The position numbers were made by a program, and so were the translations under genes. 5,619 nucleotides of DNA from an uncultured Anaerolineae bacterium. GTDB taxonomy: Bacteria > Chloroflexota > Anaerolineae > Anaerolineales > Villigracilaceae. Every line of letters begins with the position of its first letter. The stretch's first letter is position 1. The notes beneath the pieces are model-generated. The model did not search any database and was not told the DNA's origin. It worked only from the letters and a program-made list of their open reading frames with translations. The stretch spans positions 1-5,619 of the forward strand of contig CAINXK010000179.1 in NCBI GenBank assembly GCA_903854805.1, in the 5' to 3' direction. Positions 2,657-5,619 of this stretch are shown piece after piece.

Positions 2657-3928
2657 TTAGTCTCTCTTGAAGCGGCTGTAATCAGGTTTGGGCATATCAA
2701 GCCCGGAAATTGGCAGCCCGTTAAGTGCGCGAACTTTCATGCTCAGCCCGAACAAGCGGATAAAGCCCTCTGCGTGACTCTGGTCATAAACGTCTTCCTC
2801 ACCAAATGTGGCAAAGTCTTCGCGGTATAGGCTGAACGGCGACTTGCGTCCGGCAGAAATAATGTTGCCTTTATAGAGTTTGAGACGAACCTTGCCGGTA
2901 ACCGGGCCCTGGGTGGCGAGTACAAAGGCGTCGATGGCTTCACGCAGCGGGGTGAACCACAAACCGTTATAAACCAGTTCGGTGTACTTGACGGCAACCA
3001 TTTCTTTGAAATGGCAGGTTTCACGATCGAGCACAAGTGACTCTAGCTCGCGATGGGCAAACAGCAGAATGGTGCCGCCAGGGGTCTCATAGACGCCGTG
3101 AGATTTCATGCCCACCAGTCGATTTTCGACCAGGTCGACGCGTCCGATACCGTGTACGCCACCGATGGCGTTCAGCCGCTCAACGATTTTCGCAGGAGAC
3201 ATTTTTTCGCCATTAACGGATACCGGGTTGCCAGTTTCGAAATCAATTTCGATGTATTCTGGTTCGTCCGGGGCGTTTTCTGGCGAAGTGCTCATCTGGA
3301 ACATGGATTCTTCCGGTTCATTCCAAGGATCTTCCAGCAATCCACCTTCGTGCGAAAGGTGCCACAGATTTGAGTCGCGGCTGTAGATGGATTTGATAGT
3401 TGCCGTGACGGGGACGTTGTGTTTGGCTGCATAGGCGATTGCGTCTTCGCGTGAGCGGATGTCCCATTCGCGCCAGGGAGCAATGATTTTCAAGCGCGGG
3501 TCGAGGGCCATCACGGTTAGCTCGAAGCGTACCTGGTCGTTACCCTTGCCCGTGGCGCCGTGCGCAATGGCATCTGCGCCAACCTGGTGGGCAACGTCGA
3601 CGAGGTGTTTGGCAATCTGTGGGCGGGCGACGGACGTGCCCAGCAGGTATTTATGTTCATAGACTGCGCCGGCTTTCAGCATCGGAAATAAGTAATCGGA
3701 TGCGAATTCTTCGCGCATGTCGTGGACGATTAGCTGGCTCGCGCCACTGTTGATGGCCTTATTTTCCAGCAGGGTTAGATCTTCATCGCCCTGGCCCACG
3801 TTGGCGCAAAAACAGACCACCTCGCAGCCATAATTTTCAATAAGCCACGGCACAATCACGGAAGTATCGAGACCGCCGGAATACGCCAGCACAACTTTTT
3901 TAACTTGCGGTTTTGTAACGGATTTCAT
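2657..3928 (-). CDS. argG: Argininosuccinate synthase
   Basis: A 423-residue enzyme that condenses citrulline and aspartate with ATP to argininosuccinate in the cytoplasm. The N-type ATP pyrophosphatase P-loop is AYSGGLDTS (15-23). The citrulline/aspartate-binding regions [10 protein letters not shown] (94-103), [14 protein letters not shown] (123-136) and [15 protein letters not shown] (182-196) are intact. Length is slightly above the roughly 400 residues of the common short form because of a short N-terminal lead ([11 protein letters not shown]) and a short tail. The ATG has a GGAG site at 3934-3937, 5 nt or more upstream. It is the first gene of the operon and directly follows the structured leader and intrinsic terminator at 3954-3990. 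Read-through of that terminator would therefore set expression of argG and everything downstream, including lysW. Confidence 0.97.
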
Positions 3929-3953
3929 AATATCTCCAGGCTAGAATTTTGTG

Positions 3954-3990
3954 AAAAAGAAAAGCGGCCGTCCTGAGAAGGAGGGCCGCT
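3954..3990 (-). terminator. Intrinsic terminator in the argG leader
   Basis: On the minus strand a 12-bp stem (3979-3990 with 3963-3974, one C-C mismatch) with a UCUC loop is followed at once by a U-rich run, TTTTCTTTTT with one C interruption. This is a strong factor-independent terminator, yet it stands only about 25 nt before the argG start and downstream of the operon's own promoter. That position marks it as a conditional (attenuator) terminator, not the end of an upstream operon. Confidence 0.88.
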
Positions 3991-4028
3991 ATGGTGACCT
4001 GCGTGAGCGCTTTAGTGCGCTTCGTTCG

Positions 4029-4118
4029 TCATCCGTGGCACGCACAGCGTACCCGACCTTCTTCCAGTGAAGCGGGTTGCGGACGACGTGTACGTGGGAA
4101 CGACTTTGTTAAAAACAT
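4029..4118 (-). CDS. Candidate arginine-rich leader peptide of argG (29 aa)
   Basis: A 29-codon reading frame begins MFLTKSFPRTRR and ends at TGA, wholly inside the argG leader. Five of 29 residues are Arg (positions 9, 11, 12, 22, 24), with three in a four-codon cluster CGT-ACA-CGT-CGT. There is no Shine-Dalgarno site, but the ATG is only about 3 nt from the predicted transcription start, so it would be read as a leaderless message. Its Arg cluster overlaps the 5' strand of a 9-bp helix and lies just ahead of a second helix. An intrinsic terminator stands about 40 nt after its stop. This is the layout of amino-acid attenuation control: ribosomes pausing at Arg codons would change folding and allow read-through into argG. 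No homologue is recognised. GC-rich structured RNA can yield Arg codons by chance, so this is a hypothesis. Confidence 0.45.
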   Translation of the reverse strand: MFLTKSFPRTRRPQPASLEEGRVRCACHG

Positions 4119-4128
4119 GATAAGCGGT

Positions 4129-4156
4129 ATTCTACCACTCGAATGACATGTGTCAA
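4129..4156 (-). promoter_or_regulatory. Extended -10 sigma-70-type promoter of the argG operon
   Basis: A perfect -35 hexamer TTGACA (4151-4156) is followed by a 16-bp spacer and the -10 hexamer TAGAAT (4129-4134). A TGG immediately before the -10 gives the extended -10 motif. Transcription would start near 4121-4122, giving a leader of about 190 nt before argG. It is the clearest promoter in the window and the only one seen in the intergenic region. Confidence 0.8.
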
Positions 4157-4457
4157 TACCAAATCGAACCAGAGTGTAAACCTAATCCGTCTTCCCGTTC
4201 GTCAGACAATTATAAATGATTCATGATTAGTCACAGGCCGTTGGAAATATCCTGTTTGATCCGCACACGCAAATAAAAATCCATCCGTTGCTGTGCACAT
4301 GGCACCGTGTTTAAATGGTGATTTGACGGGACAAATACCTTTCCGTCGAATCACCGCTTACACATCTTTTCGGGCGTCAGCATGGGCATTTTCTCAGAGC
4401 GGAATAGCACCCCGTGAACAAATATAAAGATGCATTAATTGCTGGCTTTCATGGGTG
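4157..4457. other. Intergenic stretch upstream of the argG promoter
   Basis: These 301 bp between the lysX stop and the argG -35 box hold no protein gene of convincing length on either strand. Visible items are the inverted repeat at 4317-4355 and an AT-rich patch at 4208-4230 containing the perfect palindrome ATGATTCAT (4216-4224). This palindrome resembles part of an ArgR operator. There are also frames of 5 to 13 codons on the minus strand, without good ribosome binding sites. The remainder shows nothing I can name. Confidence 0.6.
4317..4355. repeat. 13-bp inverted repeat between lysX and the argG promoter
   Basis: The arms 4317-4329 and 4343-4355 (GGTGATTTGACGG and CCGTCGAATCACC) are complementary except for one position, which is a U-G wobble on the plus strand. 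The loop is 13 nt. It begins about 100 nt after the lysX stop and may end or stabilise the lysX message. No proper U-tract follows on the minus strand (ATTTAAAC comes next), so a terminator role is uncertain. The long stem could also be a protein-binding site. Confidence 0.6.
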
Positions 4458-5306
4458 TCATGCGCGAATTTTGGCTTGCGCAAGTACGTATTCAATCATG
4501 ATCGCCGGTATATTAACACCGGTCGTGGTGATACTGTTGCGGAATTCCATGGTGTGATTTACTTCGTTAACCGTCAGCCCGGTTTCGGTTTCGAAAACAT
4601 CGATGGCGAGCAGTCCACCACCCATGGCTCGCGCTGTGCGGCGGCAGAGATCGTTTAGTTCGGGTGTCAAAGGGCAGTTCGATGCTATTCCACCGCGGGC
4701 GGTGTTTGTGATCCAATTATCCGAGGTCCTGTAAATCGCTGCGATCGGTTCTTCTCCCACCACAAAAGCACGAATATCGCGCCCTGGTTTGTTGATGTAT
4801 TCCTGGATGTAAAAAACCTGATGGTTCACGCCAAGCGTAGCCTTGTGCTCAATGAAGGCTTCTGCCGAGTGGCGGTCATCCACCTTGGCTAGCAGGCGCC
4901 CCCACGAACCAACCACAGGTTTAAGTACGCAAGGATATCCCAACGCATCGACGGCTTTAAGCGCGGCCTCTTCGTCAAAAGCCATCAGAACGCGCGGGGT
5001 CGGAATATTTTCGCGAACCAGTATCTGGCTGGTAACGTATTTATCTCCGCAGCGCTCGGCAACCAGGGCGGTATTGACGACAGGTATGCCATTGGCTTCA
5101 TAGATGCGGGAAATATACAGACCGCGCGAATACGAAATCGAGCGTTCAAAAAGAACGTCGACCGGTTCGCTGATGTGGGAAATGTCAAAATATTGGTCGC
5201 CGTCATTAATCCGAATCAGACGGATGTCACTGTGTTTTTCCAACTCTTCGATCAGGTATTTCTCTTCAACTCGCAACCGGGTGAATAAAAAGCCAACATT
5301 GATCAT
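4458..5306 (-). CDS. lysX: Alpha-aminoadipate--LysW ligase LysX
   Basis: A 282-residue ATP-grasp ligase that attaches alpha-aminoadipate to the C-terminal Glu of LysW, committing it to lysine synthesis. Motifs: ERSISY (54-59), CGDK (86-89), [15 protein letters not shown] (127-141), FYIQEY (165-170), PGRDIRA (174-180), [10 protein letters not shown] (197-206) and NEVNHTMEF (247-255). The next residues, [12 protein letters not shown], closely resemble the end of Thermus LysX (from memory, [12 protein letters not shown]...TTGVDIP) and mark it as the aminoadipate-type enzyme. The paralogue at 216-1082 has a different sequence there. The start is set by AAAGGAG at 5314-5320. It lies 12 nt after the stop of a probable homoisocitrate dehydrogenase, so the two are cotranscribed and in the same pathway. 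It is the last gene before the 529-bp intergenic region. Family assignment is certain; aminoadipate specificity is very likely from motif and context. Confidence 0.92.
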
Positions 5307-5313
5307 GATGTAT

Positions 5314-5320
5314 CTCCTTT
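5314..5320 (-). promoter_or_regulatory. lysX ribosome binding site overlapping upstream stop
   Basis: AAAGGAG overlaps the TAA stop of the upstream dehydrogenase by two bases and ends 7 nt before the lysX ATG. It selects this ATG as the start and ties the two genes together translationally. Confidence 0.8.
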
Positions 5321-5619
5321 ATATATCTTTATCGGGAGCAAGGCTGCCCGGATCTAAGGATATTAAGTGCCGGATCACTTTCTCTGTCATTTGTGCGGTA
5401 GTAAGCGTGCCGCCCAGGTCTGGAGTGACCATTCGAGATGCAATACATTTTTCCACGGCGCTGCGCAATCGCGTCGCCTGAGCTTGTTCACCCAGATATT
5501 CCAGGAGCATGGCTGCGGCCAGGAAGGTGGCGGTCGGGTTGGCGCTATTTTTTCCAACCAGAGTGGGAGCGCTGCCGTGTACAGGTTCGAATACCGCGGC
5601 TTCCAATCCGATATTGCCA
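5319..5619 (-). CDS. Beta-decarboxylating dehydrogenase, probably homoisocitrate dehydrogenase, C-terminal part
   Basis: The last 100 codons of a member of the isocitrate/isopropylmalate dehydrogenase family enter from the right edge. The readable part begins GNIGLEAAVFEPVHGSAP, the family's conserved cofactor-binding stretch (GNI plus EPVHGSAP). It continues through NSANPTATFLAAAMLLEYLG and TPDLGG before the stop. The true start is outside the window; an internal TTG near 5606 is not a start. Homoisocitrate dehydrogenase, isopropylmalate dehydrogenase and isocitrate dehydrogenase share these motifs. The substrate-specificity residues are in the missing N-terminal half. The gene lies 12 nt before lysX, and its stop overlaps the lysX ribosome binding site. 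This makes homoisocitrate dehydrogenase (homoisocitrate to 2-oxoadipate, feeding aminoadipate to LysX) the best guess. A broad-specificity enzyme that also serves leucine synthesis cannot be excluded, so no symbol is given. Confidence 0.85.
   Translation of the reverse strand, partial: GNIGLEAAVFEPVHGSAPTLVGKNSANPTATFLAAAMLLEYLGEQAQATRLRSAVEKCIASRMVTPDLGGTLTTAQMTEKVIRHLISLDPGSLAPDKDI

Follow-up and report, generated by a model that had tools for sequence, protein, structure and literature searches.

A candidate ribosome-mediated arginine attenuator, with an Arg-codon leader peptide, upstream of argG in Anaerolineae

The window analysed in this work, a stretch of 5,619 nucleotides from an uncultured Anaerolineae bacterium, very probably carries a ribosome-mediated transcription attenuator with charged tRNA-Arg as its signal and the genes argG-argH-lysW-lysX as its targets. 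As judged from sequence comparison, this element would be an attenuator of the trp/his type with a new specificity, arginine, a reading that we hold with high confidence and for which we infer both the arginine response and the kinetic switch. The first gene under the proposed control is argG, encoding argininosuccinate synthase (2657-3928, minus strand, as all the genes that follow; TIGR00032, E 2.7e-148), and it is followed by argH for argininosuccinate lyase (1281-2654; TIGR00838, E 5.6e-173), by a gene for the carrier protein LysW/ArgW (1107-1277; TIGR01206, E 1.7e-20) and by one for a LysX/ArgX-like ATP-grasp ligase (216-1082; TIGR02144, E 2.2e-100). The operon joins the late steps of arginine synthesis to LysW-carrier genes and makes the amino acid that would be sensed; argC is present on the contig and strand of the leader, a few kb behind it, for example in genomes G001 and G237. 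The window contains two LysX/ArgX-like ligase genes (4458-5306 and 216-1082), which flank argGH on either side and are perhaps separate lysine and arginine versions. Upstream of the first of them, positions 5319-5619 hold the end of an isocitrate/isopropylmalate/homoisocitrate dehydrogenase gene.

The elements of the leader lie ahead of argG, likewise on the minus strand. The promoter consists of a -35 hexamer TTGACA (4151-4156), a spacer of 16 nt and a -10 hexamer TAGAAT (4129-4134) preceded by TG, with 11 of 12 positions matching the consensus. The leader ATG is placed 10 nt past the -10 box, so that the 5' UTR is probably a few nt long and the peptide leaderless; no Shine-Dalgarno sequence accompanies it. 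The frame opened by this ATG has 29 codons and a stop (4118-4029), and its product of 29 amino acids is MFLTKSFPRTRRPQPASLEEGRVRCACHG. Codons 9-12 (CGT ACA CGT CGT, 4083-4094) encode the Arg-Thr-Arg-Arg cluster, which would act as the arginine sensor. In the predicted fold, the Arg codons are overlapped by the 5' strand of helix P1, CGTCGTCC (4081-4088), which is able to pair with GGATGACG (4027-4034), a strand that includes the UGA stop. Enclosed within P1 is helix P2, in which ACCCGCTTC (4077-4069, region 1) pairs with GAAGGTCGGGT (4061-4051); a ribosome halted at the Arg codons would hide most of its 5' arm. Region 2, AGAAGGTCGGGT (4051-4062), can be either the 3' arm of P2 or the antiterminator strand, the partner of the latter being region 3, GCCCTCCTTCT (3976-3986), inside the 5' arm and loop of an intrinsic terminator. 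The terminator hairpin spans 3963-3990 and its T-run TTTTCTTTTT spans 3954-3963, ending 25 nt before argG, for which a GGAG at 3934-3937, read directly, is the likely Shine-Dalgarno sequence. The sequence-only reading of this DNA had already described the extended -10 promoter, the 29-codon frame with its Arg cluster, the terminator about 25 nt before argG and an antiterminator whose region 2 strand is alternatively held in P2, and all of them were recovered at the coordinates given above.

The 193-nt leader folds better than 200 of 200 dinucleotide shuffles (z -3.55). No Rfam family reached its gathering score across the whole window, and the T-box covariance model gave no match, either with the Rfam gathering score over the whole window or at a relaxed threshold over 3900-4457. 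The sRNA families BSnc120 and Xoo2 were matched in 3900-4457 at relaxed E only, far below their cut-offs, and were taken as resemblances that a leader rich in hairpins may show by chance. Among viral contigs no relative was found; among plasmids, 17 records matched partially, with 60-80% identity, and none covered 80% of the query.

The mechanism that we propose is the following. Transcription would begin a few nt before the ATG, as the position of the promoter indicates, and a ribosome would initiate on the leaderless message and read into the Arg-x-Arg-Arg codons. Under arginine shortage it would stall there, with most of the P2 5' arm beneath it and region 2 left free. Region 2 would then pair with the terminator 5' arm and loop before the 3' arm is made, allowing RNA polymerase to read into argG; the pairing of region 2 is supported by comparison, and its timing and outcome are what the model predicts. 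When arginine is plentiful, or when the ribosome is absent, P1 and P2 would hold region 2 and the terminator would form.

To survey other argG loci, genome contigs were scanned for ArgG, and from 583 confirmed stretches the 80 best were taken, 78 of which were labelled Anaerolineae, other Chloroflexi or genera within that phylum; the remaining two, L069 and L080, bore other names and both are without the leader. The upstream regions were scanned for TTGACN, 15-18 nt, TANNNT and an ATG 3-20 nt further on, and were then inspected. The scan matched in 62 of the 80 loci, including three wrong, very short frames that were reset by eye, and for L045, L047, L049, L055 and L056 the leader ATG was picked by eye with the Arg pattern known. 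A leader with a terminator was present in 64 of these best 80 loci and undetected in 16, among them L028, which has only 6 nt upstream. Among the 62 leaders scored, the ATG follows the -10 box at 10 nt in 42 and at 6-9 nt in 17; this count excludes L055, L056 and L049, whose contig begins too near for a promoter. None of 64 leaders had AGGA, GGAG or GAGG within the 12 nt before the ATG. Transcription usually begins about 7 nt after the -10 box, and since the ATG mostly lies 10 nt after it, the leader message is probably leaderless. One of the loci with the leader, L025, comes from Longilinea arvoryzae, which is in culture. Three more genomes, beyond the 80 loci, showed Arg-bearing argG leaders by eye (L126, L135 and L137, in G050, G294 and G101). 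The 13 most divergent leaders were left out of a core of 52, which was used for alignment A1 and for R1, a covariance model of Arg leaders only. A strong second argG-type leader was also observed (L139, G381:C150:2802-2973, E 6e-29), with no argG in the 2.8 kb behind it.

Several observations support translation of the leader frame, through selection acting at the codon level. Of the core leaders, 51 contain CGNCGN within their first 60 nt, and in every one of them the last such motif shares the frame of the ATG, although it sits at six different distances (24, 27, 30, 33, 39 and 48 nt), whereas the distance from CGNCGN to the AAGG of region 2 is spread over the three frames (21, 16 and 12 of the 49 leaders scored). 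Thus the frame is preserved as far as the Arg codons and may shift beyond them, where the RNA pairing continues. The leader without CGNCGN, L002, has only two clustered Arg codons (R-T-R-H). At least three Arg codons within a six-codon window were found in 63 of 65 leaders, the exceptions being L002 and L062, as against 3 of 64 in each of the frames +1 and +2 and 13 of 64 at most in 300 rounds of shuffling; when the five ATGs picked by eye are set aside, the count is 58 of 60.

Codons were compared among similar pairs from the 50 core leaders in which no indel precedes the Arg cluster; the pairwise counts given here are not independent of each other. Single-change differences at codons 6-8 were synonymous in 550 cases and non-synonymous in 58, with about 25% synonymous expected for codons 2-8, and at codons 9-12 they were synonymous in 162 of 216 (33% expected). 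The corresponding values were 234 of 461 for codons 2-5 and 504 of 756 for codons 13-17 (28% expected in the latter); the synonymous excess reaches codons 13-17 and therefore has no sharp end at the Arg codons. The Arg codons of the leaders in relatives are mostly CGT (160 of 221), while four genes of the window use CGC in 54 and CGT in 7 of their 81 Arg codons.

The frame could instead encode an arrest peptide, whose nascent chain, of the FALPRTRRP type, would respond within the ribosome tunnel to arginine or to a different small molecule, with these hairpins acting afterwards. The nascent chain of the fungal arginine attenuator peptide, which senses within the tunnel, is a precedent, and in the core the protein sequence A-L-P, immediately ahead of the Arg codons, is conserved. 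We nevertheless regard this as unlikely, given that the divergent leaders MNRNQLRRGRRN, MIAKWFTFTRRERRRRT and MNFYARINRRNRRRD have little in common beyond the Arg cluster and A-L-P was not seen in them. Sensing of charged tRNA-Arg by the ribosome at its Arg codons is the reading that we prefer.

With respect to the RNA, in alignment A1 the terminator is paired in 94.9% and shows 18 double-change cells distributed over 6 of its 9 pairs, a result reached by none of 500 shuffles that ignore kinship. The antiterminator is paired in 96.6% with 3 double-change cells, and its covariation score was reached by 1 of 500 shuffles of the same kind. Helices P2 (88.2% paired) and P1 (85.3% paired) showed little covariation beyond such shuffles, and for this reason their covariation was dropped as evidence. 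In these comparisons covariation is strong for the terminator and modest for the antiterminator. In addition, the terminator loop tracks region 2: when AAGG and CCTT served as anchors, pairing at the next four positions gave P values of.0095,.0025,.019 and.63 in 50 of the 52 leaders (L042 and L044 lack the anchor), in shuffles that ignore kinship and with the rows L029, L045 and L051, anchored on an earlier AAAG, retained. Joint variation of region 2 and loop is seen in CGTG/CACG (L043), CGGG/CCCG (L027) and TTGG/CCAA (L037). In the divergent leaders L060, L062 and L070, a conserved antiterminator with compensatory changes was not found.

The alignment of argG leaders suggested by the sequence-only reading therefore displayed Arg codons in frame, a terminator and an antiterminator that are kept, and some compensatory changes. 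Leaders that keep the hairpins and lose the frame, which that reading had named as evidence against itself, do not occur in the core; outside the core L146 may be an exception. This last stretch (G050:C274:4042-4201) matches R1 and retains the terminator with a frame containing a single Arg, and its contig stops before any gene.

The maintenance of P1, P2 and the terminator across the 52-leader core is what would be seen if the leader were a riboswitch or were bound by a protein, the RNA structure alone acting as the sensor and the frame being incidental. This explanation appears very improbable to us: the frame survives indels of three, its changes are mostly synonymous and Arg is enriched in one frame only, and in Rfam the leader has no family at the gathering score and just the two sub-threshold sRNA matches obtained at relaxed E. 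An attenuator read by a translating ribosome is in better agreement with these data.

The spacing of the elements is another aspect to consider. Counted from the first base of the second codon in the Arg-Arg pair, region 2 begins at 21-24 nt in 45 of 50 leaders, and in the window the P2 5' arm occupies the stretch 8-16 nt ahead of that codon. The usual forward cover of a ribosome ends before 21-24 nt, and most of the P2 5' arm falls within it. The stalled state was modelled by folding the RNA from 13 nt past the first base of the second Arg codon to the terminator loop. At least five antiterminator pairs were formed in 52 of 52 core leaders in this stalled fold, compared with 9 of 52 for the free RNA and 20 of 52 with the ribosome at the start. 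When the terminator 3' arm was added to the stalled fold, at least five antiterminator pairs were retained in 10 of 52, and the switch would thus need kinetic folding, in which the antiterminator forms first as the RNA emerges. The count of 52 is not taken as proof because, with region 2 shuffled, the stalled fold still gave at least five antiterminator pairs in 405 of 520 cases, owing to the fact that region 2 is rich in G and the terminator arm in C. The mean energy of the antiterminator duplex is -17.8 kcal/mol for the real sequences versus -11.2 kcal/mol for the shuffled ones, and 27 of the 52 core duplexes beat at least 98 of 100 shuffles. Of the divergent leaders, 9 of 12 form the antiterminator in the stalled fold and L060, L062 and L070 do not; in L047, L063, L064 and L072 it forms also without a ribosome, and the duplexes of L060, L062, L070 and L076 are no better than shuffles. 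A constitutive leader, whose terminator would merely trim transcription or end a short RNA with no response to arginine, is the least credible explanation. In its favour, the terminator prevails in the full-length fold of most core leaders, also when a ribosome is stalled on them; it would leave unexplained the in-frame Arg codons, the distance of 21-24 nt to region 2 and the way the terminator loop follows region 2.

The off state of the proposed attenuator is the point at which our analysis departs from the sequence-only reading, according to which onward translation would block the antiterminator. The stop codon lies a median of 32 nt after AAGG and precedes it in 1 of 50 leaders. In the window, about 20 nt separate the antiterminator strand from the UGA that follows it (4031-4029), so that a terminating ribosome need not cover that strand. 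As the stop is usually past region 2, the off state would most likely be P2 closing behind the ribosome, and re-formation of P2 explains it better than a blocked strand. In the trp attenuator, the off state is a ribosome parked on region 2.

Regarding distribution, R1 matched at least 64 of the 396 genomes in the class of G001 (the genome of locus L004; probably Anaerolineae) at E <= 0.01, and 16 of the matched genomes reached E <= 2e-15. This count is a lower bound because the filters were strict and few candidates per genome were considered; among its weaker matches are other leaders and hits probably due to chance. The C-terminal domain of ArgR, the usual repressor of arginine genes, was found in none of the 396 class genomes, their completeness not being stated, with 8 of 14 control genomes positive. 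Across the phylum it was found in 66 of 301 genomes; R1 matched 18 genomes of the phylum at E <= 0.001, and none of these is among the 66. An arginine attenuator makes sense in a class in which the ArgR domain was not found.

Similar leaders were detected before other genes. For carA, 3 of 13 loci have a promoter, an Arg-bearing frame and a terminator, namely L161 (the same as L141), L165 (L140) and L170 (L142), with R1 matches of E 2e-14, 6e-15 and 3.5e-10, respectively; the Arg-Arg pair is lost in the last one. No leader was detected at 29 argF loci or at 28 argC loci. Terminator-like hairpins were noted upstream of L204, L216, L227, L244 and L246, and weak promoter and frame matches without a terminator at L160, L168, L228, L231 and L235. 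In the same class, 19 of 20 ilvB upstream regions have a frame with at least nine Leu, Ile or Val in the first 22 residues, a cut-off chosen after examples had been seen. The peptides of these ilvB leaders (L286-L301 and L303-L305) resemble MNSIFSLSLIVVLLAVLIIKD..., with terminator-like hairpins behind them by eye. Since R1 also matches ilv leaders, a shared Arg/Ile-Val scaffold one base out of frame (CGT CGT versus GTC GTC) was considered and is not claimed; by eye, the antiterminator strand of the ilv leaders (GGTTAGG) overlaps the codon-pairing strand, a layout unlike that of the Arg leaders.

Other leaders were observed individually. At L097 (reverse strand, approximately 1501-1660), the leader MFKIQVAKRHHHKTSLS... 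has His-His-His and a terminator, and is a candidate histidine attenuator; the gene behind it looks, by eye, like one for an amino-acid transporter binding protein. A three-Arg leader with a terminator (L131/L151, G277:C1:9015-9151) is followed by a gene that by eye resembles one for a related transporter binding protein. In Longilinea arvoryzae, a Leu-rich leader with a terminator (L101, G002:C1:28060-28219; weak R1 match, E 0.04) precedes a gene that by eye resembles one for a branched-chain aminotransferase. We give roughly even chances to the broader proposal that Anaerolineae, lacking ArgR, use class-wide leaderless ribosome-sensing attenuators for Arg (argGH-lysW-lysX(-argC) and some carA), for Leu-Ile-Val (ilvD/ilvB) and for His (a transporter gene).

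The argG leader shares a common plan with the trp, his, leu, thr, ilv and phe attenuators. Classical attenuators have a frame rich in codons for the end product, mutually exclusive antiterminator and terminator, and a terminator just before the biosynthetic gene. The argG leader differs from them in its apparently leaderless start, in its Chloroflexota host, in a stop that is usually well past region 2 and in Arg codons placed inside helix P1. The trpL of Sinorhizobium meliloti, an alphaproteobacterium, likewise encodes an attenuator peptide and is leaderless, and its specificity is for tryptophan. The fungal arginine attenuator peptide is also a short arginine-sensing upstream frame connected with arginine synthesis, but it exerts eukaryotic translational control by nascent-chain arrest.

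In the accessible part of PMC3766115, Rfam is said to contain attenuators specific for His, Leu, Thr and Trp, and those for Ile/Val and Phe are placed elsewhere; arginine is not named there. According to the part of PMC6386406 at hand, two consecutive Arg codons in a short frame (orf34) of the Salmonella speF leader sense arginine, and this leader acts through Rho, speF translation and RNase G. Its target, as given there, is ornithine decarboxylase; the leader described here does not belong with speF/orf34, the gene being argG and an intrinsic terminator standing before the biosynthetic genes. The available portion of PMC7298713, on an attenuator peptide, contains the word "leaderless". Arginine T-boxes, mentioned in the sections consulted of PMC1262725, likewise represent RNA control of arginine genes, but the argG leader has no T-box match; the same sections report no conserved RNA structure upstream of the arginine operons of Actinobacteria. 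The extract of PMC4833913 holds nothing on arginine. The literature searched, with subscription papers and preprints mostly outside it, contained no report of such an attenuator for arginine biosynthesis, nor of one in Chloroflexota.

If our interpretation is correct, arginine would be added to the few amino acids with biosynthesis under ribosome-mediated attenuation, and leader-peptide attenuation would extend to Chloroflexota. Furthermore, it would suggest a route of arginine regulation for a class in which ArgR was not found. Since translation of the leader seems to be independent of a Shine-Dalgarno sequence, this leader would also be a compact natural system in which to test leaderless initiation and its coupling to transcription.
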